Origin: Polytrichum commune
Taxonomy: Eukaryota > Streptophyta > Polytrichopsida > Polytrichales > Polytrichaceae
Reading direction: 5' to 3'
DNA length: 64,000 nt
NCBI GenBank assembly: GCA_950295325.1
Contig: OX485805.1
Coordinates: forward strand, 34,027,501 to 34,091,500
A program made the translations under genes and the position numbers. Below, one piece after another: positions 21,338 through 48,150 of the stretch (positions are counted from its first letter, which is position 1; each line of letters opens with the position of its first letter). The notes under the pieces are model-generated. The model did not search any database. It saw only the letters and a list, made by a program, of their open reading frames with translations, and had not been told where the DNA came from.

Positions 21338-21365
21338 AACACTATATTCGTTAAATTGAGACTTT
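21338..21365 (+). repeat. Left terminal inverted repeat of the giant transposon
   Basis: Starts AACACTATATTCG; 28 bp, identical to the reverse complement of 48123-48150. Preceded by CAAT. Confidence 0.85.
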
Positions 21366-21498
21366 TTGGGCATTTTGAGACATTCACAGAAATAAGAACA
21401 AGGATAAATGGAACACATATTGGAGAAAGTTGTAAGATGCGAACACTTTGAAGCGGGTGTTTAGAACAAGAACCCCGTTAATAACTCAATATTTGGGA

Positions 21499-21760
21499 TT
21501 GTTTAGGGTGGGCAATCCAAACCTTAGGCCAAGTTGAAGGGGAAATCTTAAAACATTCATATTATAGCACAAAAACTTGTATGAATATGGTTTAGGTAGG
21601 GCAATCCAAACCATAGATCATATTGAAGGGGAAATATGTGAACCAATATAATATAACATACAAAATATTCCAAACTCATATTTGTGATGGTTTAGGTAGG
21701 GCAATCCAAACCTTAGACCATATGGAAGGGGAAATCATGTGACACTTATATTATTGCAAA
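21499..21760. repeat. Left subterminal repeats, three units of about 90-100 bp
   Basis: Each unit has GGTTTAGGTAGGGC followed by AATCCAAACC, then an AGTTGAAGGGGAAAT-like tail; cores at 21499-21523, 21589-21612 and 21689-21712. The core is an imperfect inverted repeat (GGTTT-GG against CC-AAACC) of the same design as the internal 22-bp palindromes. Probable transposase binding sites (inference). Confidence 0.75.
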
Positions 21761-21944
21761 AAAAAAACATACAAAGTGTGGCATGTAAAATGCATAGCAT
21801 GCTAACACAACACATCCATTGGATAGTGCGACCCAAAATGTTCTTGCCTATGGCCCAAAACCCTACGCCTACTATGGCCTATCTAGCCTCGGAGACTACC
21901 TCTTTTTCTTTTGCCTCTTTTTCTTTTGCTGCAGCTTCTTTTGC

Positions 21945-22166
21945 TCACATTGCTTCAACATTCCTGAAAATCTCCGCCCCGCGACTATAGCCATTCTTGG
22001 GGTGACCGCCATCAATAACACATTTTGGATTCCGTCGGCCGCCCAAATTATACGACGAAGAATTCGAATACGATGAAGTGGACTGTCTTGCATTTCTGGT
22101 CATGGAGTAGAAACGCTCCAACTCGACGGACGCACTAGCCCGCATAGGTCTACGGGTGGGAGCAAC
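21945..22166 (-). CDS. Possible downstream exon F (Ser/Arg-rich, disordered)
   Basis: Opens in phase 0 after a GTTGCAG acceptor (VAPTRRPMRASASVELERFY) and runs to a TGA after NVEAM. Rich in Ser, Asn and Arg with no recognisable domain. Together with exon E it may form an alternative C-terminus of the fusion gene upstream. How it joins is unclear, because exon D has its own stop. Downstream, at 21896-21945, a KKKRQKKKR-coding stretch lies in another frame. Confidence 0.4.
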   Translation of the reverse strand, partial: VAPTRRPMRASASVELERFYSMTRNARQSTSSYSNSSSYNLGGRRNPKCVIDGGHPKNGYSRGAEIFRNVEAM

Positions 22167-22280
22167 CTGCAACGCGTGAATGCAAGAACACACGTGTTAG
22201 TTTAGGGAGGAAGACCCAAACGTGTCACACGTTCATTTTTTAAGTGCCGGATGATTGTAATGCGCGGTTAACCATGTTTT

Positions 22281-22296
22281 GGGGGGGGGGGGGGGG
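22281..22296 (+). repeat. 16-base G run
   Basis: Uninterrupted G tract in the intron between exons E and F. A similar 19-base G run lies at 23803-23821, in the intron before exon D. Confidence 0.9.
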
Positions 22297-22301
22297 TTCA
22301 C

Positions 22302-22655
22302 CTTGTCACCGGGGGCGTTCCCGTCGGAGTCGGCGAGGAGGGGCAATGCGTCCCGCAAAGGAATAGGAAGGGTGCCACTCTTCGTAGGCCGAGCGTCCAT
22401 CCGCAGCCGCCGTTGAGGTGTACAAATGCCGCCGGGCCGAGAGGGGGACGTCCGGACGCATTTGCGATTTATGCCCTTGAGCGGCGACGGGGACGGAGAT
22501 CGCCGGAAGATTTGCTTGGGTGGGGGGCTATCGACGACGCCGGCGTCAAGAGGCTCCTTGGAGTAGTCGATGGTGGACGCGGCATCGTAGACGGTCTCGT
22601 AGAAGAAGCTCCCCAAGTTTGATTCGCTGACGATCTCAATCAAGGGCTCCAAACG
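22302..22655 (-). CDS. Possible downstream exon E (Pro/Ser/Arg-rich)
   Basis: 118 codons between a CCATCAG acceptor and a GACAAG|GTGAAC donor, phase 0 at both ends (RLEPLIEIVSESNLGSFF...). Contains acidic, then Ser-Pro/Arg-rich sequence; no domain recognised. It follows exon D on the same strand 121 bp beyond D's stop codon, so it is either used by alternative splicing or is left over from an older gene structure. Confidence 0.42.
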
Positions 22656-22776
22656 CTGATGGCAAAATTAAAACAAACAAAACCCAAGGGGAGGGGGGCA
22701 GGGGGGGGGAGCATGAGAAAATTGATATACAATTGAGGCATACTATATCACACACAATGGCACACCATGTAGTATC

Positions 22777-23589
22777 TCAAATGAGTTTATTATATTTCGC
22801 GTGAGCGTACAACTCTCTGTACATATAGTCCTTCGGATCCATGTATCTTTCGCCTATCGGATTACAACTAAGGAACCGGGGCACGGGTAGTCCGCTCCCC
22901 ACGAGCGTTTGAATGTACTTAAGTAGGTCTAACAAAAAGCGGTCTCGGACCTTCTCGACCGTCCACGTGGGGCAAATGATGAAGTTGGAGGTCGGGTTCA
23001 AAATGTTTTTGGAAGCGTTGTCGTCCACCATCAACGTGTTGTCACGGGTGGGGCGAACGTCGTAGGGACAGCCGACCATGGTCGGACGCTGGTCCCATAC
23101 GACTGGCTTCAAGACCTTAAGAAATTGGTTTACGGCGGGGTTGTTGGGCTTCTTCACAACCCTGCCCTCGGGGGTGTACAATGTTTTACAAGAATCCTGT
23201 CCTAGGACCAAGCACGGGGGTTGGAGTCCCTTGAAGATGAACTCCACGACGGCCTGGGTATTCTCGGACTTCATGGAGCTCCAAATGATCACCCACCATT
23301 TGGATAGGGCGACCTGTAGGAAGCGCCGAAGCCACGGGCGGAGGTACACTAGCTTGCTTTTGATGTACGCGGGGGGTCCATCGTAGTTGGCGTCCTCGGG
23401 CTTGCAGAAAGGCACCGTTGGGACCCTCGGACAATGCACGCACTGGACAAGGACCCCGTTGAGGTCTAGCACCAGGAACCGGGTCTTGGGAGGCGAAGGT
23501 GGCGAGGGCAAAATCGGGGGGACCACCGCGCTGTCCTCCACACTCCTCGGAGAGGATCGGTGGGGAGCCGCGACGCTATGCTCCGAACC
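22777..23589 (-). CDS. Exon D: FCP1/NLI-type HAD phosphatase domain, C-terminus of the fusion gene
   Basis: 271 codons including the stop. I place the acceptor at CGTCGCCGCAG|GGTTCG because it gives phase 0, matching the donor of exon C, and because no ATG precedes the domain in this frame. Domain features: a hydrophobic strand with LVLDLNGVLV (HAD motif I), VIIWSSM (motif II Ser), a later Lys, and TLMVDDNASKN (acidic motif). This is the order seen in FCP1/SCP phosphatases, which dephosphorylate Ser/Thr on nuclear proteins. The second Asp of the usual DxDxT is Asn here; the nucleophile Asp is kept, the general acid is not, so activity is doubtful. It lies 495 bp downstream of exon C on the same strand. 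Ends YNKLI and stop. Confidence 0.68.
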   Translation of the reverse strand, partial: GSEHSVAAPHRSSPRSVEDSAVVPPILPSPPSPPKTRFLVLDLNGVLVQCVHCPRVPTVPFCKPEDANYDGPPAYIKSKLVYLRPWLRRFLQVALSKWWVIIWSSMKSENTQAVVEFIFKGLQPPCLVLGQDSCKTLYTPEGRVVKKPNNPAVNQFLKVLKPVVWDQRPTMVGCPYDVRPTRDNTLMVDDNASKNILNPTSNFIICPTWTVEKVRDRFLLDLLKYIQTLVGSGLPVPRFLSCNPIGERYMDPKDYMYRELYAHAKYNKLI

Positions 23590-24041
23590 CTGCGGCGACG
23601 AGCGAGAGAAGGCGGCGAGGACTATGTTATGCTATGTCCATCTCAAGCAGAACGGAAATTTTGTGCAAACACAAGAAGAATTGGACCATTGGTGGCAACA
23701 AAAACATACAAGGGAACAACATACATTGGGACACGGATGCAAACATATGGGCGCCAAAAATAATAATTTTATTTTTACAAATCTCTATGTACAATTTGAT
23801 TCGGGGGGGGGGGGGGGGGGGCGCGGTGAACGAGGGCATTCACACTATCCTAATTCTACATCTACAAAATTGGTTGCGCGCCGCCAAGGTCAAGCGTAGT
23901 CGAATGCAGGTGAGACGAAGGGGATCGCGGGGGGGCACGTTGGGGGGAGGGGGAGCAAGTGTAGACCAGGGGGGGCAGGGGGTGTGCATTTCCTCCTAGC
24001 AAGGGGGACACGACCACGCCAACAAGACAGTGACCCAGGAA

Positions 24042-24063: not shown

Positions 24064-24084
24064 TGGGAGGGCTCAGTGTATTAC

Positions 24085-24787
24085 CTCGCCCTGGTCATGT
24101 CTCGACGATATGGAAGCCTCCACCGTCCCCGCTGCCCCGCCTCTCTCGCCACCGCCTTCTCCGACGACGTCAGGAACCTTCTCCTGCAAACGATCGGCAT
24201 CAGACCCTTGTCCTAAACCAATCTCCGCATGTGCATCATGCATGGGTTCATCGATTTGGTTAGGAGTAGAGGTATCACCAGGCCCTTGCAGGCCTTCAAC
24301 ATCTAGGATGGCCGTGTCTAGTTGACACCCATGTTGGTCAAGGGAGGACTGCGCTGCAACGGGGTTTGGGTCGCCCGACCCAAACTGTCCTGCATCTGGA
24401 GAGGGCCCTTCGGACACTACAGTGGATGGTGGGTTTGGGTCGGTCGACCCAAACATCCTGGGGTCGTCCGATTGGTGGGGTGGCGCCATGACTATGGGGG
24501 CCCGAAGTGGTGGAGGGCCCAAAGGGGAGGAGGCTCCAGAGACGCGCCAGATGTTGGGGTCATCCACTTGCTGGACCGGCGCGTACGGAACTTGGTGGGG
24601 CCGCATCAAGTGCTGGAAGCTGAAAGACGATTGCGGCACAGGCTGCTGAGGGATGCTCTGCGGAGGGAAGCCGGGGGGCAAGTGCGGGAAGGAGCTGGAG
24701 GGAGCCACCACCAAACGTTGCGCCCACATTCCTTGTATCACTTGTGATATCAAGTCGGCGTGGGACGGAGGTTGGGCCATCGCCCTT
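24085..24787 (-). CDS. Exon C, 3' part (split by a retrotransposon)
   Basis: Continuation of exon C left of the gypsy insertion. With one copy of the CCCTT duplication counted, 35057-35841 plus this part is 1488 nt, exactly 496 codons, and the frame runs straight through from QERQR into AMAQPPSHADL. Composition is Pro/Ser/Gly-rich and disordered, with a helical start. The donor GGCGAG|GTAATA at 24084 is phase 0. Two copies of the 22-bp palindrome are inside the coding sequence (24364-24385 and 24433-24454), where they encode FGSGDPNP and FGSTDPNP. The insertion separates this part from its promoter, so the present allele should be disrupted. Confidence 0.65.
24364..24454. repeat. Two 22-bp palindromes within coding sequence
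   Basis: 24364-24385 (centre CC) and 24433-24454 (centre GT), both with perfect 10-bp arms GTTTGGGTCG/CGACCCAAAC. Confidence 0.88.
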
Positions 24788-27629
24788 TGTGGTACTTTTG
24801 GGCCACCCCCTTTCGAGGGAGCCTAAAAGTATCACACAAGCCCTTCGGTGAAGGTGGCCTGCATTTGCAGGCGCCCAAGCCGAACCCGGATGATAGGTGT
24901 ATAACGTGAGTAGTTAGATTTTTAAGGGAGATTAAATATGCGTCGTAGTACCTCCGGAGGTTAGGCCTTAGTTTTTTACTAGTGTGGCTTTAAACTCCAC
25001 TAACCAATTTCATATCTAGTTCTAACCTTAACCTACAACCCATTCTACGCGCAGACGCACCAGCCTTGAAACCAAGGCAATCATAATTTGTGAATTGGGA
25101 TGGTTCTGATACACCCAACCGGGTGTGACTCATACCACCCTAACTCAACGAACGGAATAACGACAATTTGATGGACCATTCAATTCTTCCTATTTCTTTA
25201 TTTAGTTCTATTTAGTTTTCTAAGCGGGGGAACTTGGCCTAAGTCCCACCCTTCACACAAATTCCTTCTTAATTACTTACTTTTGTTTGCACGTCCTAAC
25301 TTACTACATTAACATATTAGGCATCACCCCTTACCTCGGGTCTCTTGCCAACAAGGGTTTACGATTTATTTTGTATGTTTTGATTGTTAAATGTGTTTAC
25401 ACTGGATAGACCACGAAATGCAACTCAATGGGACCAGGGTGACGGGCGACCTGTAGGTTTAACTTGTTGCGCAATCTTCATAAATTGGGGCCATTACTCC
25501 CAATCTATGGGGCCAACAACATAATAGTGGATTCGCGGGTCATTAACCCCACCTTTCCACCAACAACATTCAGAGTGGTCGTGTCGGTGATTAATCCGAC
25601 TTACCACACACGAAACTTGCTAATAAATGAAGCTACTACCACAAAACATACCAAGGGCCCCGAAAAACAATGGAATTGGGTACTCCCTTGGCGGTCAAGT
25701 GGTCAAGCCACTTGACCTTACGAGATAGGTGAGTGGGTTTAGAGATGCGTACCTTAGCCGTGCTCCCTCCAATCCTAAATGGAAGGCTTAAGGTTAGTTA
25801 ATTTACCTCAATTTTCCTCGGTTGATTTGGGCTTGATGTAGGCCGAGCCGCTACCTCCTTCCTTGCTCCACTTTCCGAGCGTCGACCTTGCCTCCTTCTT
25901 TGTAACTAGTTTGGTAGTAAGCGTACCTTAGTTAACAATTAAAATATAAAGTGTTATTCTGCCCTGTAATTTAATCCTAAGCATAATATTTATACTTAGT
26001 GCACCAAATTATCTTTCCAATGATCTAAAAATCACTCTAATCGGATAAGAAATGCAAAAGTTATGAGGGTTGGAAGTGTGAGGTCGATTCAACCGACCCT
26101 TCCAACCCACCTATCTACCTTCTAACTTCAAAAATTCATAACACATTCCTTACTACTTGGATCTAGGCTTTCCTTATACCATTGGAAAGCTATGAACAAG
26201 CTCTAACTAGAAAAATTATGACATCAGCAGGTTAAGCTAATAGAAATTCAGCGGACTCCTTGTAACACAGCAGTCAATCAAGAAGGCTTAAACTATGTAT
26301 CTCGCCTTCAACAATTCATATCTAATTCAAATCTTAGTCAAATCAAACGTTCTATATGACCCTGGAGAGATATTAAAAAGATGTATTTGATAAAAATATG
26401 TGATTAGAAAGGTAAGCCGAAGTGAACCCAGCAGGTCCTCTGTAATGCAGCAGTCAACCAAAAGTTCTCAAACTATGTGTCCCATCTTGCACAATTCATA
26501 TCTAATTCAAATCATGCTCAAATCAAATGTTCTAAGCCATTTTGGAAAGCTACACAAAAGTTCTACTTGGGAAAAATATAATTTCTTGGAATTAAAATTC
26601 CTATTGGGCTCGCAGGTCTGATCCAGCAGCCGCTACCCACAAGACCACCCAGTTTTTCTACTCCATCTTTGAAAATCCATAACTAATTGTCATCTCAACC
26701 AAATCACAAATGGGAAACGGCTATGGATGGCTATATGAAATCTCTCTAAGAGAAAAATGATAAGTATCTTGTTCTAGCTTTTGAACTAAGCCTTCAGGGC
26801 ATTGGCAGATGAGGTCTATAATGCCTCTACTCAAAACTCTACCATCCAACCTACCTCTACAAAAGAAGGAATAATTTTGTTGGTGTGTTAATAAACACAC
26901 AACCTAACTAGGAGAGAGAGAGTAGAGGAGGTTCTCAAGCCTTTCTTTTAGACCATTGAGAATACATGCTAAAGGAATTTTTTCCTAACTACATTGAAGC
27001 AGGGCTTCGCCCAAAAACTAGAGAAAGAAAGAGAGCTACAAGGTGGAAGGAGGGGTTTTTAAACCCTCTCACAAAAGGGTTGGACCCCTCCTCCACCGGA
27101 TCCATTTTTCAAACCCTTTCCCGAAATTTTGGCTCGGGGGTTTTCCCGGTTGAGGTTGCCACCCTCTCGCCGAGGTGGCTCCGACAAAAAACCTTTAGAA
27201 ATCTTTCTAATTTTTCCGCCATCGAGTTGGCAAGGGGGCAAGTGGGCAAGTATCCCCCTTGCTCTCTTTCTTTTTTGTCTTCAAAATTCTTCACGCCGAT
27301 TTTATCTTCTTACGTAAAACACCTCCAATAGTCTTGTGTGCCTCACACTAACTAATAAACTAACACTTGCTTAGCTAGCATTTACTAACATTTGCTTAAT
27401 AGCTAGCATCTACTAATATTTGCTTAGCTAGTTGTTTTTACTAGCTAGCATATTTTTTTCTACTTTGCTATCTTCTAGCACTACTTAGTTTCATTTTGAC
27501 CTTCCTTCTTCTAGGCTAAATGCTAAATGAACTAATTTTCCCTAAATTCCCTATCAATTCTAACTTTTAATGCTAACATTCTAACTAAAAGTGATCCCGC
27601 AGAGTGGTGGACCACTCAAAGGGTTCACA
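24788..27629 (-). repeat. 3' LTR of the gypsy element
   Basis: 2842 bp, direct repeat of 32210-35051; TG..CA ends in element orientation. Small ORFs inside are identical in both LTRs and have no recognised domain. Confidence 0.93.
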
Positions 27630-28165
27630 TATGTCGGCCATCAGGGGAGCTGCTCGTTCGAGCGCTACGAACACCAGCTCTTGCTCGCACGCCAATCCTG
27701 GGTACACGGTCACCTGCATGCACACCACCACTTACACATATATTTTTTGTTTTATTTTTGTTTTTTCTTATCATTACTTGCATCTTATCCTTTCAAAGAT
27801 GTGAAGAGGAGAGAGAAAAGAAGAAGATAGTACTATACTAAAGCCAAAAAACACTTCAAAGCCGCCACACTCCCCCACCGGACTGGGTTTGTGTCTATCT
27901 AGGACACCCCCTCCGCCTTGCGGGAGCAACTTGGAGCTATAGAAGAAAAAACATTCAACCCGCTTCCTTCCTCTTCGGAGAGAGTTCGGACTACAAGAGC
28001 AATTCCCAGGCGCTGAAGAAAGAAGGTCCCCCTACTGGTTTCCTTCAAACAATGACCACGGAGGGCCGACCTCTAACCTAGCACCTATTGCAGGAATTTG
28101 AAACCCTCCGCCTTTGCTTTGGGTCTAAAGGTATCACATCGCATTTAATCCGCTAGTTGCACCTG
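27630..28165 (-). other. Element 3' untranslated region
   Basis: Between the ORF stop and the 3' LTR. The bases next to the LTR (CTGATGGCCGACATA in element orientation) are not the polypurine tract expected there. A pyrimidine/purine-rich stretch at 27800-27830 is purine-rich on the opposite strand only. Confidence 0.55.
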
Positions 28166-31100
28166 TCACACATTATACAACTTACACCGACCCCCGTTAG
28201 TTCGCGTAGGGAAATATGTGCCATCAAGTGTAGCCAATTGAACCGAATTATTGTCATACACGTTCGTGACCCAAAAAGGGCCCAACCACAAGGCGTGAGA
28301 CTTACCTGGGAACTCCAGTTTCCTCGCATCTTGGAGCATTACCGACGTCCCGGGTTGCAAAGTTCTTACCTTGTGTCGTTTGTTGAAGACGGCCTTGCGC
28401 CTCCGTTTCATCGCCTCGAGATGTTGCACACTAGCTCGTCGTCGCTCGCTAAGACTCTCTAACATTAGCAACCTATCTGCTAGTGACTCGGCTACCGTAA
28501 GTCGTGAATCAACTGCAATTCGCAAAGAGGGGATCTCCAACTCGATTGGGAGCACTGCTTCAATCCCGTATACAAGGGCAAACGGCATTTGGTTGGTTGG
28601 ACCTTTATACCAATCGTTTGGCACCGAAGGATATGACGCGAAATCATGGCCTACCTGAATTCCGGTAGAGGTGTTCTTGAAATGCAAGGATGGAACAATA
28701 TCTTCTTCGAGCACGAGGTCCTCTAGGCCTATAGGTTGCGTGCCATCAATCTCAAAGGAATAAATTGACTCAAGCGGTAGGTCATCGGCTATGAGCGCGA
28801 ATCCGGTGTGTCCACGTGACGTGTCCTCGGTGGCGGTGATCGCATATACCTGGGTGTGGTTGGGAATTTCTTCCGGGTTGAGTTCCATCCATGCTGTGAA
28901 CTCACCTGTGTCCTCCCAGCCATAGAGGCCAGGACCCATGTCCTTTACTGGGCCTAGATGGGTCTTAGTGCCCAATGTTTGGTTGGCTAAGTCTACCGAA
29001 ACTATGTTGGGTTCTGGCTTCGACTTGGGTAGGTCGGATTCCGTGAATTCTGTCGAAGGCTTACGGAGTGCAATTCTTGTCGTTGTTCTGTTGTGAGGGG
29101 GCCCAAATGTTATTTGGGAGGTACCCGTAGACCACTCGGTTGTGGCATTTGCTCTCCGAAGCCAGTCTCTACCTAAAAGTATCGGATAACTTTTGGATGT
29201 TACAGGGAGCCTCAAAACTTGAAACGTGATCGTATAGACTTCTCCCCCGACTTTCATCAAGCAATCCTTTACCTGTCCAAGGGGGGTGACTTGTCTTTGG
29301 TCCGCGACATTGATAACAAAGGGTGAAGGGCCAGTGAGCTCGAGGCCAAGTTTTTCCAACGTTGAGAGTGGCATAATATTGATCCCACTACCCCCATCAA
29401 CCAGGGTGTGCGGGATTATTTTGTCCATAATCTCAACCTCCACCTCGATTGGTCCTTCGTCCCCTAGGGGGGTTCTTCGGACCTCAACTGCCATCGTTGG
29501 GATTTTAGCCTTCCTAACCTGGGTGGCTCCTTCCTTGAATTCCTTTCTTAAGGCGGGAGCTACTTGAATTAGTTGTGCCAAAGAAATGTTGGCTCGTAGG
29601 CTACAAAGGTCTGACCAAAGGTCGTAGTCCTCGGCCGGGTTAAAGGCGCGACTAGGCCGGGGTTTCGGTGGGAAGTTAGCGGACAAGCCATTGCCCCATG
29701 TGTCTCTTGTATCCACAAATCGGAAGAGGTCTTCCTCTTCCTCCAGTAATGGTTCTTCTACCGGTTCGTCATCAGGGTTAGGCTCTAGGGAAGTTGTGGG
29801 AACCTTAGCCTTAAGGGCTGCGTTCTGCAAGAACTCTGGAAGTTCTGCGAATTTTGGTGACTTTTCAGACTCATTCGACTTCTCGGAACCTTCACCCATC
29901 ACGGTTTGTGCCCTCTTCTGAGCCCTAGTGACCACTGCCACGTCTATTTTCTGCTTTAGTTTTCTAGGGGGAACCAGGATAGCCCGTAAAGAAGAATCGG
30001 CTAGCTCGTGAGAGATGAAGTTGCTATGACTATCATTTGGGATAGGAAGGAATGGAGCTGAACAACTTGTGCTCGCCCTATTGTTATCAATGAACCTCGC
30101 GTCTTGGGTTTGTGCATGACCAAGGTTAAGGGGACCTTGGGATGTTGGAGGCCCATTCATGTTTTGCGCCCATTGTTGGTTAGTATCCTGTCCACTCCCC
30201 ATAAGATGTTGGGGAGGGTTGTCGGTATACTGACCGTTAAGACCATAAGCCTGACCTTGGTTCATTTGGTACCCATAGAATGGGTTGCCTTCATTAGGGG
30301 AGTTATTGAAGGTATTACCTTGTTGTGCAACTTGGGGTCCATTGTTGAACCTATTCGGTTGGTTCCAGCCCATCTGAGGGACATACTGTTGGCTTACCAT
30401 TCCTACCAAGTTCGAGTCGGCTTGCCTACCACCGGCTGGGGGGTTTTGAGGGTACAAATTTTGTGGACCTTGATAGTTGTTCCCCCTATTACCTTGGTTT
30501 TGGTGGTTGGGTGGACCGTAGTTTTGTTGGCCATTGCTTTGTGGGTTACCTTGGTGATAATTAACCGACATTCCTCCTTGGTTCTGTTGATTCCTATCAT
30601 AGAAGAATGCCGGAAGTTGTTGATTCAGCTGAGAGTAATGGGAGGGTCGCTCCGCGAGAATCCTACGACAATTATCAACCGGGTGATTACCCCCACAATG
30701 GTTGCAGACCACCCCCGTCTCGATCCAACACTTACCTGGCCCCAAAATGTGAACCTTGCCGCAAGTGGGACAAACTCCTTTACCGTTGTTCCGGGCTTGA
30801 GTCTGGGAGTGGCCTTGTTGTGGACGGGGGGGTGGGGCTACTAGATTACCTGTGAACCTAGGCTCCGTGCAAAATTGATTACTGTGGCCAGGTTTGTTGC
30901 AATTACGACACCAAATGTTGGTGCCATAATTACCTGCCTCCGAGGCCGGCGGAACTGGTTGTGCTAAGGGCCTAGACGTGATTGCCATTGTTAGCTGCTC
31001 TGTGAGGGTCTTGAGCGACTGCATGACATCGCTCCTCAACTCGTCGTTGGCCTTCTTAACTCTAAGTTCTAGCTCCTCGATCGTGGTGTGGCTCGGAGGG

Positions 31101-32206
31101 CTAGGGAGTGCTAAGAGCTCAGGGGGTGGCCTCGTAGCCAAAGGAACCGGGGCCGCTCGGTGGACTGCGTATGCATCCGGTCGGGATGGCTCCAGCTGAG
31201 GAGGCTTACTCTGCTCGGGAGGAATGTAGGTTGTGGGTAGGAAGGCTGGCACAGGTGCAATAGTGCAATTCCACATCCGCTCATTTTGTTTGTCTACACC
31301 TTCGATCCTCCTAGCCTCGGCTTTAGCTTCTTCCAAATCCTGAGGGTTGGAGTTAAGAATTTCTCGGATTGTACCTTGTTTGTTGAACCCTTGTATGAAG
31401 TAGAATTTAATCGTGTCATTTGTGAGAAGGGTTCCTACATAACGAGTTACCACCGTCTCGAACCGTCGGATGTATGATGTAATACCCTCGGATGGGCCTT
31501 GCCGCATGTTCGTTAACGCCACGAGTGCGCTTTGTTGCCCCATTTCCGGTCTAAATTGTCTAAGGAATGCCGTCTGCAATGCTCGCCAGTCCCTAAATGT
31601 CCCCTCATCGTGGGATCGGTACCACTCATACGCTATACCCTCTAGCGTAGTAGAAAACCAAACGAGTTTGTACGTGTCTTCGGCTATCACGTAGGCCAAC
31701 ATTACCTCAATATATCGTTCAATGTGGGTTGAAGGATCCTCATGCGGGAGGCCACCGAACTTCGGAAAATAACTCGGCATCGCCCTTGGCGCTAATGCTT
31801 GTGGCATTACAATGGGAGGCCCTCTAGGAGCCATCATTGCATCCAAAGGATTCGCCATGAATTGGGGTCGTGCCACCCTAACCGGACTTTGTGGGGTGGG
31901 GGATTTCTCCCTCTCGCGCTCGGACTCTGGACCTAGACCTTGATATTTATTTTCCTTAGTCTTTCCGGGTTTTGGTGGTTCGTTCTTCGACCTCTTACCT
32001 GGTGTTGCCTCCGATGCAAATGCGGTTGTTGTTGTTGGGGTGTCGTACGATCGTCCCCTAGTACTAACCATAGCACAAGTGGCCCATGACGTATGACTAA
32101 TTTCTATTGGACTAAACTCTTCTTCTCTTAGTCTAAACGTATAAGTACTCAAAGAAATATCATTCGAGCATGGCAGGGGCATCCACCCTCCCGGCAGACG
32201 CACCAA
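28166..32206 (-). CDS. Gag-protease-integrase C-terminus fused polyprotein, internally deleted
   Basis: 1346 residues without a stop. In order: a basic N-terminal region; a retrotransposon gag domain (about residues 150-300, with EWYRSHDEGTFRDWRALQTAF); a CCHC knuckle CRNCNKPGHSNQFC; a second Cys/His cluster; a long Asn/Gln/Gly/Pro-rich stretch; an aspartic protease (LVDGGSGINIM, then LLGRDWL), with DGG where DSG/DTG is usual; then without a break the integrase C-terminal part (QMPFALVYGIEAVLPIELEI, and the LGPFWVTNVYDN region). Everything from reverse transcriptase to the integrase catalytic core is absent, so the element is non-autonomous but can still make gag. An intact frame in a deleted element suggests the deletion form itself has been propagated. 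Confidence 0.88.
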   Translation of the reverse strand: MVRLPGGWMPLPCSNDISLSTYTFRLREEEFSPIEISHTSWATCAMVSTRGRSYDTPTTTTAFASEATPGKRSKNEPPKPGKTKENKYQGLGPESEREREKSPTPQSPVRVARPQFMANPLDAMMAPRGPPIVMPQALAPRAMPSYFPKFGGLPHEDPSTHIERYIEVMLAYVIAEDTYKLVWFSTTLEGIAYEWYRSHDEGTFRDWRALQTAFLRQFRPEMGQQSALVALTNMRQGPSEGITSYIRRFETVVTRYVGTLLTNDTIKFYFIQGFNKQGTIREILNSNPQDLEEAKAEARRIEGVDKQNERMWNCTIAPVPAFLPTTYIPPEQSKPPQLEPSRPDAYAVHRAAPVPLATRPPPELLALPSPPSHTTIEELELRVKKANDELRSDVMQSLKTLTEQLTMAITSRPLAQPVPPASEAGNYGTNIWCRNCNKPGHSNQFCTEPRFTGNLVAPPPRPQQGHSQTQARNNGKGVCPTCGKVHILGPGKCWIETGVVCNHCGGNHPVDNCRRILAERPSHYSQLNQQLPAFFYDRNQQNQGGMSVNYHQGNPQSNGQQNYGPPNHQNQGNRGNNYQGPQNLYPQNPPAGGRQADSNLVGMVSQQYVPQMGWNQPNRFNNGPQVAQQGNTFNNSPNEGNPFYGYQMNQGQAYGLNGQYTDNPPQHLMGSGQDTNQQWAQNMNGPPTSQGPLNLGHAQTQDARFIDNNRASTSCSAPFLPIPNDSHSNFISHELADSSLRAILVPPRKLKQKIDVAVVTRAQKRAQTVMGEGSEKSNESEKSPKFAELPEFLQNAALKAKVPTTSLEPNPDDEPVEEPLLEEEEDLFRFVDTRDTWGNGLSANFPPKPRPSRAFNPAEDYDLWSDLCSLRANISLAQLIQVAPALRKEFKEGATQVRKAKIPTMAVEVRRTPLGDEGPIEVEVEIMDKIIPHTLVDGGSGINIMPLSTLEKLGLELTGPSPFVINVADQRQVTPLGQVKDCLMKVGGEVYTITFQVLRLPVTSKSYPILLGRDWLRRANATTEWSTGTSQITFGPPHNRTTTRIALRKPSTEFTESDLPKSKPEPNIVSVDLANQTLGTKTHLGPVKDMGPGLYGWEDTGEFTAWMELNPEEIPNHTQVYAITATEDTSRGHTGFALIADDLPLESIYSFEIDGTQPIGLEDLVLEEDIVPSLHFKNTSTGIQVGHDFASYPSVPNDWYKGPTNQMPFALVYGIEAVLPIELEIPSLRIAVDSRLTVAESLADRLLMLESLSERRRASVQHLEAMKRRRKAVFNKRHKVRTLQPGTSVMLQDARKLEFPGKSHALWLGPFWVTNVYDNNSVQLATLDGTYFPTRTNGGRCKLYNV

Positions 32207-36001: not shown

Positions 36002-37333
36002 CATAGCAGCATAGACAGGTTTTGAGCCTCCGAAGACGTTGAAGATGCAGTCCCCTCTCCTTGTCAGCGTCCTCATCATTCTCATGTAAAATTCCATCCG
36101 CAGCTCATCTGCAGGATAGTTCGCGTATTTAGCTTTGTCGTAGAGGCACTTGTTCGCACCCAACCCTTCTGGAACTTGGAAGAGTTTGTCCATCCGGGAT
36201 ATAGGGTGGTTTGGCACCTTCAGCAACTCCGCTTTGTACACGAAGTACAAACACAAGACGTTGACGAACTTGGTCTTCTTGTCCTTCAACGTCGTGTAAG
36301 CCCCCTCCGCCGGTGCGGCGATGTAGTGAGACTTGGACACTGCATACTCCGGCTGCAGTTTCCGGACAAGCTCGTACACCTGCTCCGCCCTTCTATCCTC
36401 GACTATCCAAAGCCAGATATCTACCTCCCTGAACTTAGGGCTTGCATAATCGACGAACTTAGTTAAGAAGGGGTCGTAGAAGAGGGTGCTCATCGTGCCC
36501 TCAAATGAGCTTCCAGGAATATTTCTAAAATCAATCATCCCAAAAGGAAAGCGGTCCCTTGCTTTCGTCCTTATCGCCATTCTGGCGTCTTGACCTGGCC
36601 AGCCCTGAATTTTCAAAGGCTCGAAGGTGACAAGGTTGAAGTAAGCGTCCCCTTCAAACTGGACAATCTTCTTCTCCTTGATGAAGTTCGAGAACGCACG
36701 CGCTGTGTGATCTGGAAGCGCCCGGTTCTTCCCACCTTTCACCATCTTGGCCCGCAAGAAGTCGTCCCCCGCTTCCCTTATTAGAGCCGCCATGGAGGCA
36801 CTGGTGAACTTATATTCATCTTTGAATGCTCTCCAGTTAGCCCCATGAACCTCGCCGTCCACGACAATATTCCTCTCTGGCACCAATTTATGCAGCTCCT
36901 GTACGATAGTCGTCTTCTTTTTCCTGTTCTCCGTCCATTCCTTCATGGTGTAGCATGAAGGAACGAAGAATTTGGGCTTTACGAAGACAATCTTCGGGTG
37001 CACCCAGCACCTCTTGGCCGTGGGTGCCACGTGCAGGATGTGCGATGCCGCCTTCTCCACCTCCGTCTCTGACAGCCCTTGAAGAGTTCTAAAGAACTCT
37101 CTCACGAGAGGCTTCATCTGCTTGAAGCGCGAGGCCAGGCTGAAGAAAGCGCCAGTATCAGGGTCGATCAAATCCCCCGTCTCGTGCTTTTCAAACACGG
37201 TTTTCCACTTCCTCCAAACTGAGTCCGATGCTGTAATCAAGTAAATCTCCCCCTTCAGGTCGCTGTATTTCTTCTGCTTGTGGCTCGAATTATCAATGGA
37301 GGAGAATTTGTTGATCATTTGGTATTTGAAATC
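36002..37333 (-). CDS. Exon B: beta-class DNA-methyltransferase-like domain, degenerate
   Basis: 444 codons, phase 0 at both ends (acceptor GTGCAG, donor GCTATG|GTAAGT). The C-terminal part resembles the end of N4-cytosine/N6-adenine methyltransferases of the beta class: a helix (YPADELRMEFYMRMMRTL), then TRRGDCIFNVFGGSKPVYAAM, which corresponds to the AdoMet-binding motif I (GD-x-V-L-D-x-F-G-G-S-G-T). A central strand-helix region (FPFGMIDFRNIPG; DIWLWIVEDRRAEQVYEL) sits where motif IV (DPPY) should be, but no DPPY is present, and motif I has FGGSK for FGGSG. It therefore looks like an inactive or far-diverged methyltransferase fold. The N-terminal half is not recognised. Family assignment rests on motif order and is not secure. 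Confidence 0.6.
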
Positions 37334-37433
37334 CTGCACGTGAACAAAACATAACATTTGAATGCGTGTTAGTTAAGTACATGTGATTTCTAAACCATAT
37401 CATGACCAACATCTACAACAAGAGTTTGGGTCG

Positions 37434-37592
37434 GTCGACCCAAACTGAAAAAAAACACAAGACTGCAACAGTTGTTTGGGTCGATCGATCCAAACTAAAA
37501 AAACACAAGACTGCAACAGTTGTTTGGGTCGATCGACCCAAACTAAAAAAAACACAAGACTGCACCAGGAGTTTGGGTCGGTCGACCCAAAC
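37434..37592. repeat. Four 22-bp palindromes in intron A-B
   Basis: At 37434-37455 (GT), 37474-37495 (AT, one arm base changed), 37522-37543 (AT) and 37571-37592 (GT). They are separated by A-rich spacers containing ACACAAGACTGCA. The intron is only 268 bp, so palindromes make up a third of it. Confidence 0.9.
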
Positions 37593-37601: not shown

Positions 37602-38927
37602 CTCCCACTTGGGATTCTTGTCCTTCGCATTCTCCCTCTCCTTGGGAGGCCTACCATAGAACTCCCACACCTCCCGCGAGGCCATGATATTCCTTATCCA
37701 GGACGCTTGGTAGGCCCTCTTCTTGTTTCCCATATTGAAGTACCGGGAGATGTCGCTGAGCTTGGTCTCGTCGTCAGACCACACCACCAGTGCCTTCCAA
37801 ACCTTCAGCTTTTCCTTCTGATTGTTGGGATCGTCCCACTCATTCATGAGTTGGATTTTCTTGGATGCCTCCACGCTGTGTTGGCCGTCTATCAGCCAAA
37901 AATCGCCCTTCTGAATTGTTGGCCACATTTCAGGTGTAGGCATTTTCTTGAGACCCTGTGGCATCACTACAATCGTTTGCCTGTCGTTTTTAAACTGCTC
38001 GCAAACGATCTGCGCGATTATCCAGTCAACGTAGGCGTCCTCCTTTGCCCGGACACACTTCTCCGGTGGCGCTAGATGGCACTGGCTGATGTTTACGTCG
38101 AACTTGAAATCCCTGCCCATGAAAAAACAGTGGGAGCATTTCGTCGTGAAATTGTTCACAATTTTCTGCAGCTCCCCTGCATCCACCTCTTCGCCAGGCT
38201 TCGGCATGCGCAACTCCGGTGAGACTGGCTCGTCAATCATCACAGATGACTCTCTCGCCCTCTTGGATGGAGTTGTTTGACGGCTCCCAGAAGGTGTAGG
38301 GGTCTCACTATTCGTAGGTGTTTGGGAGGGAGTGGTCCTACGCGAGTCAGCCGGTACTGGTAGCGGCATCCTCACCGATTGAGGTCTTGACGACCCTGCT
38401 CCTTCCTCTGTGGGAGGTTTCCGCCTCACAGGTTGCTGTGATTTGGTTTTGCTTTGCAGGCCCCTGTTCAGCACGGTTATTGCATGTTTTAGTTTTGTGA
38501 ACCGGCTTGAGACCTTGGTATTCAATGTACTCCCATCGATAAATATTGTCTCCGGCTTGATAACTTCCGGTTCGACACAGGACTCTTTTGCATAGAGTGC
38601 GTCGAAAGGCTCGGAGAACTGGTGCATGAACATATGCGCGTTCTGCACAGCCGAGTTCTCGAGGATGACGTCGGTATAGTCTCCAAGAGACTGTACCGAT
38701 GCGACCTCCCATCCCGTAAGAGTCGCCCAGGTGTGTTTCTCCACGGTTCCCACCTTGACAACAAAAATCATTTTGTATGTTGAGGCTTTGACTACTTGAA
38801 TAGACCAAGCGAGGACAAGCCCGTCCTTAGGGGAATAGGAGTCATCCTGCGGGGTTTCGTGCTCCTGCCACAACATGTCCGGCGCAGGCATGAACCACCT
38901 TTCGCCGGGTCTTTTCTTTGGAGCCAT
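37602..38927 (-). CDS. Exon A: ParB/DGQH-like domain, N-terminus of the fusion gene
   Basis: 442 codons, starting at ATG (MAPKKRPGERWF) directly after a TTCTTACAG acceptor, so a 5' non-coding exon is expected upstream. Residues 1-130 form an unrecognised domain. Residues 160-250 are a Ser/Thr/Pro-rich linker. Residues about 275-415 resemble a ParB/RepB-type fold: a helix-strand region (AYVDWIIAQIVCEQFKNDRQ, then TIVVMPQG) leads to the signature FWLIDGQHSVEASKKI (345-358), equivalent to G-x-H/R-R-x-x-A in ParB and DGQHR proteins. In bacteria and phages such domains occur fused to DNA methyltransferases, and here exon B continues with a methyltransferase-like fold. The donor GAG|GTGAGT is phase 0. 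Likely role: sequence-specific DNA binding or cutting linked to the element's palindromes (inference). Confidence 0.62.
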
Positions 38928-38953: not shown

Positions 38954-38975
38954 GTTTCGGTCGTTCGACCCAAAC
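38954..38975. repeat. 22-bp palindrome upstream of exon A
   Basis: Arms GTTTCGGTCG and CGACCCAAAC, centre TT; 26 bp upstream of the start codon, within the 5' intron. Confidence 0.85.
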
Positions 38976-39213
38976 ATCTACGACATGAATAGGTTTAGGT
39001 GGATTGTGTATTTATATATTTCAGCATCATTTGTAATGATAATAAGAATGTTGTGATTATTGGGTGGATTTGCATTTTATATTGTTTGTGACATGCATGA
39101 TTCCTTGATACTTTTCCTTGATGCATTCCTTGATTATTATTTTGGGTTGATGTGAATTTTATATTGATGCAAAAATCATGGATTTCTTTATGAGTTTATA
39201 ATTAGAAGACTTA

Positions 39214-39451
39214 GTTTGGGTCGTTCGACCCAAACATGATGCTTTGTGTTATATTTTGGTCGTTCGGCCCAAACATGATGCTTTGTTTTGTGTTTGGGTC
39301 GAGCGACCCAAACAAGGGGCTGTGTTTGGGGCTGTGTTTGGGTCGGTCGACCCAAACAAGAGGTTGTGTTTGGGTCGGTCGACCCATACAAGAGGCTGTG
39401 TTTGGGTCGGTCGACCCAAACAAGAGGCTGTGTTTGGGTCGTTCCCCAAAC
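39214..39451. repeat. Cluster of seven 22-bp palindromes
   Basis: Copies at 39214 (TT), 39253 (diverged), 39292 (AG), 39336 (GT), 39368 (GT), 39400 (GT) and 39432 (truncated arm). Spacing is 32-44 bp and spacers are of the CAAGAGGCTGT type. Lies in the presumed 5' intron of the leftward gene. Confidence 0.9.
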
Positions 39452-39660
39452 AATATTATTTTAATGTATTTTTTAATCTTGGCATCTAGCATATACAATG
39501 CTTATGCATTGTGTATGCTACAAAACCGTGAATATACAAACACATATTGGTTAAAATAAAACACAATACCTTTCAAAGATGTTGTGCAAACAATTTGGAG
39601 TAGAGCAGGTTGTTCTTCCAATAATTCTCAATATCAAACAAACTGTGAGAAAGTTCAATG

Positions 39661-40000
39661 AGAAACTTTCAAACAAGTATCAACTCTCTCAAATAGCTCT
39701 TGGATCTCTCAACCAACTCCTGAATCTCACACAGAACTACTGAATCTCTCAAAAGACTTCGAAATGTCTAAACCAACTCATGAATCTCACACACAACTAC
39801 TAAACCTCTCAAATGCCTTCGAAATGTCCAAACCAACTCCTGAATCTCACACACAACTACTAAACCTCTCAAAAGACTTCGAAATGTCTAAACCCACTCC
39901 TGAATCCCTCACAAAACTACTGAATCTCTCAAACGACTTCGAAAACTCTCAAACAACTCTTGATACTCTTAAAAAACTCTTGAATTTCACAAGCACTCCT
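39661..40000. repeat. 20-bp tandem repeat array
   Basis: About 17 degenerate copies of a 20-mer close to TGAATCTCTCAAACAACTCC, with a higher-order 60-bp period clear at 39721, 39781, 39841 and 39901. Strongly strand-asymmetric (few G). Located between the palindrome cluster and the presumed first exon of the leftward gene, so it sits in its 5' intron. The open frame over it on the plus strand is a by-product of the period. Confidence 0.85.
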
Positions 40001-41125: not shown

Positions 41126-41381
41126 ATCGGTATATTCGTTAATTTGGGATTTTTTCGGCATTTTGAGAAAGTTACAAATATAAGAACATGGATAAAATCG
41201 CACGTACATTGGAGAATGTTGTAAGATGCAAATACTTTGAAGCAGGTGTTCATATCAAGAACGCAATTAAGATCTCATATGAAGATGGTTTAGGTAGGAT
41301 GACCCAAACATTACACTATGTTGTTGTGGTCCATATATTAATTTGAGAGAAGAGAAAATCTCAAATTAGCGAATTTTAGGG
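41126..41381. mobile_element. 256-bp deletion derivative of the giant transposon's family
   Basis: Its left 200 bp align with 21341-21540 (TATATTCGTTAATTTGGGAT, then GGCATTTTGAG, AGAACATGGATAAA and so on), including one GGTTTAGGTAGG..GACCCAAAC core. Its right 60 bp align with 48090-48145 (TCCATATATTAATTTGAGAG, AATCTCAAATTAGCGAA). Possible TTTA duplication at 41122-41125 and 41382-41385. The outermost bases have decayed. It lies in the spacer between the two divergent genes. Confidence 0.72.
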
Positions 41382-43324: not shown

Positions 43325-43627
43325 GGCGCATCCCCCAAAAGTCAGTCATTTTTTTCTCTTCTCCCGCTGTCGAATTCGTAGAGAGAACTCTTAGTAGGAG
43401 CTGTACTTCAAGGTTCGTGCATGCTGCCGTTCATGAGCACTTATCCATAGCATGCAAGTTCATGAACACCTATCCACACCATGCAAGCCCACCGTGAACT
43501 TTGCAATGAGCTCAAATTCAACACACCACGCAATATCCGCCGCATTATAAGCCGGATTTTGTGGTGTACTTGGGCGAACCTTCACCTTTACACTAGTGTT
43601 GGCGGGTTTTGAGTCTGACCCTATGAG

Positions 43628-44389
43628 GTTTGGGTCGACCGACCCAAACCTGTCCACTAGTGTGTTAGGGTTTATGTCTGACCCTTAACATGTTTGGGTC
43701 GGTCGACCCAAACCCCAACCCCAGTGTGTTAGGGTTTTTGTCTGACCCTTATCAGGTTTGGGTCGACCGACCCAAACCTGTCCACTAGTGTGTTAGGGTT
43801 TATGTCTGACCCTTGTAAGGTTTGGATCGGTCGACCCAAACCCCTACCCCAGTGTCTTAGGGTTTTTTTCCTGACCCTTATCAGGTTTGGGTCGACCGAC
43901 CCAAACCACTACATGGTGTGGGTGGATGTACTCTTGTGAGGTTTGGGTCGGTCGACCCAAACCCCTACCCCCAGTGTGTTAGGGTTTTTTCCTGACCCTT
44001 ATCAGGTTTGGGTCGATTGACCCAAACCCCTACGTGGTGTGGGTGGATGTACCCTTGTGAGGTTTGGGTCGGTCGACCCAAACCCCTACCCGAGTGTGTT
44101 AGGGTTTTTTCCTGACCCTTATCAAGTTTGGGTCGACCGACCCAAACCCCTACCTGGTGTGGGTGGATGTACCCTTGTGAGGTTTGGGTCGGTCGACCCA
44201 AACCCCTACCCCAGTGTGTTAGGGTTTTTTTTTCTGACCCTTGTCAGGTTTGGGTCGACCGACCCAAACCCCTACCTGGTGTGGGTGGATGCACCCTTGT
44301 GAGGTTTGGGTCGGTCGACCCAAACCCCTACCCCAGTGTGTTAGGGGTTCAGTCCGACCTTTATGAGGTTTGGGCCGGTCGACCCAAAC
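43628..44389. repeat. 13-copy array of 22-bp palindromes with alternating centres
   Basis: Copies start at 43628, 43692, 43756, 43820, 43885, 43941, 44006, 44062, 44126, 44182, 44248, 44304 and 44368, spaced 56-66 bp. Centres alternate AC, GT, AC, GT and so on, with one AT variant and two GT at the end, so the motifs face alternately. Spacers alternate between GTGTTAGGGTTTTTTCCTGA and GTGGGTGGATGTACCCTTGT types. Lies between the transposase promoter and its first clear exon, probably in a 5' intron. Confidence 0.93.
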
Positions 44390-44565
44390 CCGCACCAAAA
44401 TAATTTCTGGAACTTGTTTTGGACTTGCACACAGTGTTGGGAGTTCACATTGTAGTTGTGTTGGAAATGTCTTCATCCTCGGTGTCCCCATTGATCATGG
44501 TGTCTTGCATTTTCCGATATTTGATTCTTTTGGACCCTTACATTCTTTCCATGTGTGTAGGCGCA

Positions 44566-45995
44566 ATGGAGGGAGTTGGTGGAAGAGGGGATTCCTTCTC
44601 TGACGACATGGGCAACACCCAATCTACGTCTGGGGATGAGCTAGACATTGTCGGGGAGGATAGTTTTGATGACAGTGCAGATGAAGGTGACTTGGGGAGT
44701 CCTTCGCCATCTGCCCCTTCTTGCCCCACTGTGGAATGTGCTGGGCTTTCACGAGCTTCATGGGTGAATTTGGATGTAGTACTTGTTAATGACAATGGAG
44801 TTGCTGTGGCGGAGGGTATTTGTCGTAACACACATCCAGAAGATTGCATTGATGAAAACCCCCTTGGCACCGAGGACGTTGGAGTTGTTATATTGGAATC
44901 ACTCGTACATTCTGAAGTGAATCCAACTCATAGGTTCTCGTTGCGAAGGTGGCCATTGAGGAATGTGACAATTGATGGGGTTAATTTGCATGAGCACGAG
45001 CGACGACACATCCAAATCCAAGAAGAGCTCCAAGCAAACATTCGGCCACGCAAAGGCCTACGGAAGTACGATACATTGGCACGTCCTACTCCGTCTGCAA
45101 ATGAGTGTAAACGTCAAAGGTTGCTTTGTGAGGAGTCCATTAGAGAAGTTGCCACAAAGGATTGTTGTGTACATCGTTGTTGCCAATTGTTCCCAAGGGA
45201 TAAATTGAAGGCCATCCGCGAGGAAATGTGGCTTGGAGATTTCCGTCTAAGATCCACCAAAAAGCTTGATGTCCATAGGGCGATACATGTGAACGGAGCG
45301 GGTCGCAAGGTCATCACCCTTGAGAGCATAGACGTGTGTTGTACCGCATGGTACATCATTCACGGTGTGTCGAAAGCGGAATTTTATAGACAAGCCGCGT
45401 ATGCCAAGGAAGGCCGCCGGTCCCGTCACCATGGGAATACGGGCTTAAAGAAACCAAGGGAAGCAACAGCCACTCTGGCAACCATCATTGTCCCCCTTGC
45501 CGATGCAATGCCGCACAAAACACGCACACTCGCAACCGGTGAAAAGGTTGTGGAGAAGGTTCTTCCTACAGGCACGAAATGGAAAGACATATTGTTGGAC
45601 GTAAACGCAGTTGGCGAGAAGGCTGGGTGGACCCTATTTCGTTGTCGAAACTGAGTGCAATAAAAAATCTCACTTTAGCGAATACATCACAAAAAGACGA
45701 GGCGACAAATTTGCCCGTTGTTCCAAATGCCAGAAGTTAAAACGCCTTCGAGATGCACACACGATGGGGACAGAGTCCTATGCCGCACATCAAATGAACT
45801 ATTTCAAGCATGTGAACATGCAAGAGGCACACCGTAATGATTACTACACAAATAGAGCTTTGTCCATCTCTAGGCCTTTGGAGGTCCTTACAATCATCCA
45901 TGACAAAATGGACCATGCCAAAACAGCCTCACCATGTTTTGCAAATCGAATCAAAGCCACGGACGGCCTTTTTAAGCTTTCTGTATCGGTTACAA
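44566..45995 (+). CDS. DUF7869-like transposase, first coding part (one frameshift)
   Basis: I place the start at ATG 44566 (MEGVGGRGDSFSDD), just after a pyrimidine-rich TGTGTAG acceptor. An acidic Ser/Asp-rich N-terminus leads to a Cys cluster (KDCCVHRCCQLF), a helical region typical of the family (SIDVCCTAWYIIHGVSKAEFY) and basic stretches. The frame stops at 45654, but the +1 frame from about 45611 carries on with the expected YFVVETECNKKSHFSEY and a zinc-like FARCSKCQKL. So one small indel near 45605-45650 splits the gene. The exon then reads to a donor at 45995/45996. Function by family: RNase H-fold proteins with transposase-like motifs, often in transposons. Confidence 0.68.
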
Positions 45996-46132
45996 GTGAT
46001 TTCGATAACAATTGCATTGCATTACCTAAACACAAATTTGTGCTTTAGGTTTGTACTTGGGGCCATAGATGTACACCATGTGAATTTTTTGGTGTTATAG
46101 TTGAATATTAAACCATTGGGTTGGCTTTACAG
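45996..46132 (+). other. Intron of the transposase gene
   Basis: 137 bp, GTGATTTC..GGCTTTACAG. Removing it joins LSVSVT to MVAHGHGDVKYAHY in frame; both flanking frames otherwise stop. Confidence 0.6.
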
Positions 46133-47619
46133 GGATGGTTGCACATGGACATGGTGATGTCAAGTATGCTCATTATGCTCTTGATTTGTATCCGGCGGAT
46201 TCAAACCATACGATAGGGTCATTTGCAAAGCTTTTACGTGATTTGGAGAAACCGCCGTCCTATTCATCAAGATTGTTATTTGAAAACTCGGGATCAACAC
46301 CTCTATATGAAGCGGTCTTGGATGGAAGAGATGTATGCGTGCATTCATTGCCGGAGCCACCAAGTGAAGATGTGATTGCCAAGAATTTGCCCCCAACTCT
46401 GCGTGTCCAATTGGACAATTGTGCGAAGGACAATAAAAGTAGATATGTTTTTGCATATTGGTCGTTGTTGGTTGCGAAAGGCATTTTCAAGGAGGTTTTT
46501 GTGTCCTTTCTATTGGTAGGCCACACGCACGAGGATATCGATGCATCTTTTGGGCGGTGGAGCATGAAGTTGCGCGAGGAGGATTTTCCAACAATCCCAT
46601 TGTTGATGAAGTCGTACATGGATTTGGAGAACATTCCCGTCATCCCCCATATGATCGAGAAGGTTCCCGACTTCAAGGCATTTATAGAACCGTATATTCG
46701 AAGCGGAGCTCACCGATTGATCGGGCATACGAAGGCACAACAATTTCGGTTCTACGTGCGTGACGATGGTGTCCCCGCCATGCAATACAAGTTGTTGTGC
46801 ACATCACAAGACTGGAGCCCGCCGGAAGGTCTCCTTGTATGGCGTGTTGATGGGGAAGGAAGGACGATGTTGCCTGACAGAGAGCCTAAGCCTTGCAAAC
46901 CAATACCCATGAAGAATTTGGAGGACATTTGTAAAGGCATATCAGGCTTCATACAATATTGGGAGAGTTTGAGGGTAGCGGATGTTGGTGGATCGTGTTG
47001 GCTTCGTTACGGAAGTTGGATACAATATTGGACACGTGTTCGTGGCGCTTTGGCAAACCTTCATCAAGATACACCCCTTACTTTAAGGCATGGGTTTTGG
47101 CCACAAACACGTGTCAATGTACAACCTTCGGAGGCTAGTCTTTTGGGAAATGGAGAGGTTCGAGAGGAGTTTGATGTGGACGACCATTACATGGGGCCTG
47201 CTAGTAGTCGTCCCCCACCATCTTTCCGCATTGCAGTGGATTGTCATGAAGGTTATATGCTCATTTTGCGTCCTGGAGATGAGACATATGCAAAGCCAGT
47301 GTGGGTGGCAAGAGCTTTGTCGAAACCAAATTTTGTAACTTCCAGCCTTCATTTTCGACAAATACAAGTAGAGTACTACCGACCGACAACACGGAATGAA
47401 GATGTTGTTCGGCATTATACAGGCTGGGATACAAACCCTAACTTTCGGTGGAAGGTGGATTCTGAGCACGGTCCATCTTGGGTAGATATAGATTCCATAT
47501 TCATAGCATGGAAACCACGGAAAAATCATAGTGGATTAGTGTCCATCCCTCAAAAGTACATAACTTTTACAAAAGACAACCTTGCTCGGATCGCAGAAGA
47601 AGCAACCCACGTTGAATGA
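46133..47619 (+). CDS. DUF7869-like transposase, catalytic part
   Basis: 495 codons to a TGA. Hallmarks are LRVQLDNCAKDNKSRYVFAY followed about 25 residues later by FLLVGHTHEDIDASFGRW. These D/N and H/D motifs are the core of the DUF7869 family and are placed as the second and third acidic sites of an RNase H-type nuclease would be. A further conserved-looking region ends with PVWVARALSKPNF, reminiscent of a small BAH/Tudor-like or C-terminal domain, which I cannot confirm. There is no internal stop. It is the only recombinase-like gene in the element and so the likely mover of it. The frameshift in the first part suggests this copy is inactive unless rescued by splicing. Confidence 0.72.
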
Positions 47620-48122
47620 GAAGTTGGTAGGATTGTGTTAGCATGATTATAGTGTAATATGTAATTCGACGAATATATATTACTCATATGTGTGCTCCTC
47701 AAACTTGGGGCAAAGTTTGGGTAGAACTTGCGAATGCTATATTGTTTGGGGTTGGATGAATATCCATTTACTATATTTCAATACAGTTGTGAAGTTCATT
47801 TTTTTATTAAGTTTGGGACTAAATTTTCCATTGAAAAAAAATGCATTTATTGCATGTACTTTGTATGTTGCAATGTCTATATTTTATTGACCATGCTAAT
47901 AATAGAAATCATTTTATATGTTTCTTGGGTGAAACTAGTTTGGAGTGCTCTACCCAAAGTGTTTTTGTTGATGAAGTTGGTGTTGAGTGCTCTACCATAT
48001 GTGCTTTTGTCCACACCCCATAGATTTGGGATATTAGAACATATAATATATTTGAGATTGTTCGCAATATAGTTTCGGAACACGGAATGTTGTTTGATCC
48101 ATATATTAATTTGAGACTAGAG
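47620..48122. other. Right subterminal region of the giant transposon
   Basis: Contains two direct copies of a GAGTGCTCTACC-type motif (about 47943 and 47987). At 48111-48132 it has a hairpin (TTGAGACT, loop AGAGAA, AGTCTCAA) directly inside the right TIR. No further coding sequence. Confidence 0.55.
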
Positions 48123-48150
48123 AAAGTCTCAATTTAACGAATATAGTGTT
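48123..48150 (-). repeat. Right terminal inverted repeat of the giant transposon
   Basis: Identical over 28 bp to the reverse complement of 21338-21365; followed by CAAT at 48151-48154. Confidence 0.85.

Follow-up and report, generated by a model that had tools for sequence, protein, structure and literature searches.

Which kind of mobile element occupies positions 21338 to 48150 of a 64-kb window of the moss Polytrichum commune (contig OX485805.1, the window being the whole stretch of DNA that was analysed), and on which DNA might the proteins encoded by this element act? An earlier note on the same sequence had read it as a transposon that has terminal inverted repeats and a 4-bp target-site duplication and combines a DUF7869 transposase with a divergent payload, and this overall reading is upheld. 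The element is most likely a Sola-1-type transposon of land plants. A family of short palindromes confined to it, together with a 164-bp mini-element in the same window, had escaped the earlier note, and these palindromes appear to be good candidates for the DNA target of the element's accessory protein.

Ends, transposase and accessory genes

The termini of the element form a perfect inverted repeat in which 28 of 28 bases match in an inverted-repeat search (21338-21365 on the plus strand and 48123-48150 on the minus strand), and a simple estimate puts the chance of such a 28-bp pair in 64 kb at about 1e-7. Reading of the sequence placed CAAT, as a target-site duplication, directly outside both ends (21334-21337 and 48151-48154). 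Left subterminal repeats were recovered by a repeat search (21489-21764, plus strand), two of which, at 21590 and 21690, fall into the palindrome family when 5 mismatches are allowed, and a hairpin with arms at 48106-48118 and 48125-48137 overlaps the right repeat. Termini, CAAT, subterminal repeats and hairpin are thus all as the earlier note had given them. The size of 26.8 kb that it assigned to the element is inflated by a nested 10,264-bp long terminal repeat (LTR) retrotransposon at 24788-35051, which rules out a native transposon of that length; once this insertion and one CCCTT copy are subtracted, the DNA transposon measures 16,544 bp.

The window was also scanned for AACACYATATTCG-type ends with up to 3 mismatches and identical 4-bp flanks, 100 first-order shuffles serving as control. 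Two pairs were obtained (shuffles: mean 0.45, maximum 2), namely the large element and the mini-element at 8565-8728 (plus strand), which has AACACCATATTC ends with 22 of 24 matching arm positions and lies between TCTT duplications (8561-8564 and 8729-8732). The number of pairs is not decisive by itself against the shuffles, but mismatches at the four paired ends numbered 0, 0, 0 and 1, and hits with 0-1 mismatches averaged only 0.19 per shuffle. With its own ends and its own duplication, the mini-element lends independent support to the terminal consensus and to the 4-bp duplication length. A degenerate copy of both element ends was found inside the large element at 41126-41376 (plus strand; about 78-81% to the left end and 88% to the right end); it contains one weak palindrome, and no target-site duplication was seen around it.

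The recombinase-like gene noticed earlier lies on the plus strand at 44467-47619 and matches the DUF7869 profile (E 2.1e-42). Its core is DDE/integrase-like, as for the DDD-type transposases of Sola, with acidic residues encoded at 45899-45913, 46408-46419 and 46519-46542. An intron is probable at 45998-46133, and the frame is disturbed within 45628-45661. The copy in the window is probably defective now, its payload gene being split by the retrotransposon and its transposase gene having this disturbed frame. Among the 113 transposase relatives, those with organism names come from mosses and a liverwort. A sequence search of the PDB with the transposase profile returned no relative, viral contigs scanned for the transposase, the terminus, the palindrome and a payload relative yielded no confirmed one, and a literature search on DUF7869 found no paper.

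The payload gene is encoded on the opposite strand. Its exon A (37602-38927) contains a domain with the ParB/sulfiredoxin fold (about 37707-38108), exon B spans 36002-37333, and exon C is split by the retrotransposon into a 5' part (35052-35841) and a 3' part (24073-24787), the frame running on across the junction once the retrotransposon is removed. A methyltransferase-like stretch at 36002-36055 runs into exon C: the motif-I-like GDxxFNVFGGSKP, recognised by eye only, spans the exon B/C junction, and no DPPY was seen. Relatives of the payload are rare, with 4 among 3,873 candidates.

Next to it, also on the minus strand, lies a NIF/HAD-domain frame (22777-23631; Pfam PF03031, E 6.8e-14; 32 relatives). 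The catalytic motif of NIF/FCP1-type HAD phosphatases is DxDx(T/V). The frame in the window departs from it, reading DLNGV, and of its relatives 16 of 32 read DLNGV/I, 2 match a loose pattern as DYDGL, probably at another place, and 14 show no match. An in-frame acceptor before 23631 would permit fusion of NIF to the ParB gene. A separate NIF gene is nevertheless favoured by the sequences compared, because the payload frame ends in GEVIH-stop in the window, that of the relative P0125 ends in GEVMH at the equal place, and in P0129 the residue that opens the NIF frame is a methionine. The earlier claim of one divergent gene with DNA-binding, methyltransferase-like and phosphatase-like parts is sustained as to the ParB/sulfiredoxin-fold and NIF domains, is backed by a motif only for the methyltransferase, and is doubtful as to a single gene, since there may be two. 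A further open frame (22236-22667, minus strand) keeps its position in the relative P0148. Sequence searches of the PDB with the payload tail and NIF gave no relative.

A palindrome family within the element

A 22-bp near-palindrome close to GTTTGGGTCGRYCGACCCAAAC occurs in 30 copies at up to 4 mismatches, all 30 of them inside the element, with none in the nested retrotransposon and none in the 37 kb of flanks. Twenty-eight copies are non-coding and two, at 24364 and 24433, stand in frame in the 3' part of exon C. The largest array, of 13 palindromes, is situated just upstream of the transposase gene (43613-44391), and seven further copies precede the start codon of the payload gene (38954-39453). 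Four tandem copies occupy payload intron 1 (37424-37592), where the relatives P0123 and P0124 are alike, and two occupy intron 2 (35915-35975), where P0123 and P0125 carry translated palindromes. A two-consensus search allowing up to 5 mismatches raised the number to 33, including two left subterminal repeats, and gave 0 in 3 first-order random sequences. When 126 proteins were scanned, translated palindromes were found in the read-through introns of all three near relatives of the payload (P0123, P0124 and P0125), and the 113 transposase relatives showed no palindrome peptide. The mini-element holds two palindromes TTTAGGTSGASTCRACCTAAA, a variant of that of the large element. The right flank has 14 assorted palindromes (shuffles: mean 5.7, maximum 10), none of them of the GTTTGGGTCGRYCGACCCAAAC motif. 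Beside the palindromes that precede the payload gene lies a 20/60-bp tandem repeat with an open plus-strand frame (39685-40000).

Variant palindromes were also observed on a contig of 4.3 kb that is catalogued as cyanobacterial (L001, a Synechococcales metagenome-assembled genome). Its protein, 59% identical to P0011, is a moss-like DUF7869 transposase, no payload is shown on the contig, and it is probably a moss contamination of the bin. With up to 5 mismatches allowed, seven variant palindromes were counted there, three preceding the frame and four following it (shuffles: mean 0.1, maximum 1). Two contigs filed under Bacteroidetes have proteins of 24-25% identity; their even-centred palindromes are near chance (6 in L002 with a shuffle maximum of 5, and 3 in L003 with a maximum of 7), and odd-centred palindromes exceed the shuffles in none of the three contigs. 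At L002:4927-5149, on the contig of a distant DUF7869 relative, an 89-bp perfect tandem repeat is built of other palindromes.

Nested retrotransposon and host site

The retrotransposon (24788-35051, minus strand) sits inside the payload gene. Its LTRs (24788-27629 and 32210-35051) are 2,842 bp each, 100% identical and of the form TGTG...CACA, and they are flanked by a CCCTT duplication (24783-24787 and 35052-35056); it is a recent insertion. The frame between them matches gag (PF03732, E 3.1e-13; PF19259, E 4.5e-7) and shows weak protease matches below the cut-offs. As the open-reading-frame list has no other minus-strand frame of at least 120 aa between the LTRs and this one is of gag/protease type only, the insertion is probably a non-autonomous (gag-only) element.

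The DNA transposon itself had been placed in an intron of a leucine-rich repeat (LRR) gene. Minus-strand LRR motifs do occur on both sides, at 48683 to the right and between 20628 and 10581 to the left; stops follow several of them, and the site agrees with an intron of such a gene or of its remnant. Locally repeated LRR-coding segments were observed on the minus strand at 14500-19400, several of them again followed by stops. In addition, long stretches of the flanks 1-7900 and 48529-59400 are about 80-96% identical to each other (1-828 with 48529-49362, 7007-7864 with 58164-59364), which, on sequence comparison, is read as a tandem duplication of LRR-gene regions.

Known systems, rival explanations and meaning

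Sola transposons have 4-bp duplications and a DDD transposase, mostly measure 2-9 kb with some above 15 kb (PMC10741241), and occur in Physcomitrella (PMC10741241; table in PMC9033089). The element has a 4-bp CAAT duplication and the mini-element a 4-bp TCTT, so that the Sola lead given earlier by the DUF7869 transposase and the duplication length gains support. The idea that Sola elements are far smaller does not agree with those above 15 kb (PMC10741241) nor with Sola1-1_Ec32 of the brown alga Ectocarpus, which reaches 21.5 kb (PMC12477816). Opposite its transposase, Sola1-1_Ec32 carries a gene with a ParB-like DNA-binding domain and a DNA methyltransferase domain (PMC12477816), and a cargo that had seemed unrecognised hence has a published counterpart. 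More generally, ParB-methyltransferase genes recur in algal transposons, both Sola-1 and others, and Ectocarpus has giant Sola-1, EnSpm and KDZ elements, most giant families including nested insertions (PMC12477816). Sola1-1_Ec32 and the moss element, itself most likely of the Sola-1 type, are both giant elements with an accessory gene opposed to the transposase; in the moss element the opposed gene and the ParB fold were found and the methyltransferase by motif only, although the parallel makes the latter resemblance more credible. By description (PMC12477816), they differ in host, a brown alga as against a land plant, and the moss element has the additional NIF/HAD frame, the palindrome arrays and a methyltransferase-like part that matches no profile. 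The string 'palindrom' has 0 occurrences in the text of PMC12477816 on Sola1-1_Ec32. Physcomitrella Sola1 resembles the present element in its DDD-type transposase, 4-bp duplications, moss host and sizes possibly above 15 kb, and differs in that accessory gene and palindromes go unmentioned in the available parts of PMC10741241 and PMC9033089. The opposed accessory-gene architecture is thus already known from Sola1-1_Ec32, and the palindrome arrays are the part for which no description was found in the accessible portions of the literature on Sola, moss-genome transposons and ParB in eukaryotic transposons.

Other systems offer parallels in how repeats are used. In the VANDAL/VANC elements of Arabidopsis, an element-encoded factor meets short target motifs that are amplified in introns and upstream regions, where those of VANC21 form tandem repeats, and that diverge between families; they are nevertheless Mutator-type with an unrelated protein, and VANC binding and demethylation are experimental whereas the moss element is known from sequence alone (PMC5735166). 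En/Spm and the 20.5-kb Tgmt* of the CACTA group combine a transposase with a repeat-recognising protein, large size and intron insertion, TNPA recognising repeats needed in cis, and differ in their CACTA ends, 3-bp duplication and subterminal repeats; Tgmt* and the 17-kb Tam1 are DNA transposons of comparable size (PMC2613891). The placement of the moss palindromes matches, by analogy, that of VANC21 tandem motifs and TNPA cis repeats. Membership of CACTA was itself considered, as CACTA stands two bases inside the ends; it was rejected because 4 bp, rather than 3, are duplicated outside AACACTA and the flanks mismatch when read from CACTA. Bacterial ParB, Noc and KorB share with the payload the fold of one domain, and their sites are palindromic; the moss payload differs by its DGQHS box, by the lack of an identified DNA-reading helix-turn-helix domain and by its eukaryotic transposon.

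In the mechanism proposed here, the element would be a cut-and-paste transposon of a moss-type genome whose DDE/D-type DUF7869 transposase acts at the AACACYATATTCG termini, producing the 4-bp duplication. The opposite strand would supply a ParB-fold, methyltransferase-like accessory protein, adjoined by a NIF/HAD protein. The accessory protein would dock on the palindromes that stand upstream of both genes, within the introns of the payload and inside the mini-element, and may thereby mark or protect element DNA, control two promoters and assist transposition. That a ParB-type protein acts at the palindromes is considered somewhat probable. Several observations weigh against it. Tandem arrays multiply single events, so that 30 copies amount to 8 clusters, and the palindrome peptide is missing from P0126, a payload relative of 39%. 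On L001 the consensus was picked after its repeats had been seen, odd-centred palindromes counted free of a consensus at up to 3 mismatches (22) are not above the shuffles (mean 15, maximum 26), and even-centred ones number 0. The GxxR-type nucleotide-binding box of the ParB/sulfiredoxin superfamily bears an arginine, and the box here reads DGQHS, with no arginine, in all four of the sequences spanning it, which speaks against a canonical ParB CTPase. Methyltransferase profiles did not match the payload, and an active methyltransferase is not supported. The payload structure model is poor overall (predicted local distance difference test score, pLDDT, 36), and Foldseek alone returned nothing at E 0.001 or better with either of the two structure models.

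An alternative in which the palindromes serve the transposase as recognition sites, with some other role for the ParB-type protein, is rather unlikely. The mini-element does retain palindromes, those of L001 surround a transposase gene on a contig that shows no payload, and the subterminal repeats at the left belong weakly to the palindrome family, but the majority of the palindromes are distant from the ends, being placed in payload introns and upstream of genes. Large plant transposons commonly capture cargo and many of the palindromes are tandem duplicates, as would be expected of passive host-captured genes beside a functionless amplification; we regard this as very unlikely, given that the core recurs in 8 clusters with differing surroundings, in the introns of relatives and in the mini-element, and that ParB-methyltransferase genes recur in algal transposons (PMC12477816). 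A small transposase-only element joined or invaded by a separate payload element, with outer ends moving both only in this copy, would fit the internal copy of both ends and the rarity of payload relatives against 113 for the transposase. It is held to be highly improbable, as the internal copy has left- and right-type ends side by side in the manner of the mini-element, palindromes are common to both halves and the opposed two-gene layout is published for Sola1-1_Ec32 (PMC12477816). Finally, that inverted ends and CAAT coincide without any single unit having moved is scarcely credible: loose end pairs with matching flanks do average 0.45 per shuffled window, but a 28/28 match is unexpected by chance and a second element has the same kind of ends with its own duplication.

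Beyond docking of the ParB-type protein, the palindromes might form the address code of a self-marking system carried by a transposon in a land plant, an extension that we consider quite unlikely as a whole. The accessory protein would load at arrays over promoters and introns and write or guard a private mark (N6-adenine or N4-cytosine methylation, or a ParB-like clamp), the element would stay unsilenced and its ends would be brought together, and the diverged palindromes of the mini-element and L001 would act as a family specificity code.

For ParB-methyltransferase accessory proteins borne by transposons, it has been proposed that they bind and modify the element that encodes them, with no target sequence named in the accessible passages. 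The moss element supplies a concrete candidate target: a palindrome that is restricted to this element, is amplified at its promoters and introns and is kept in a mini-element. Since gene targeting is feasible in mosses such as Physcomitrium, binding, DNA marking and mobilisation are directly testable.

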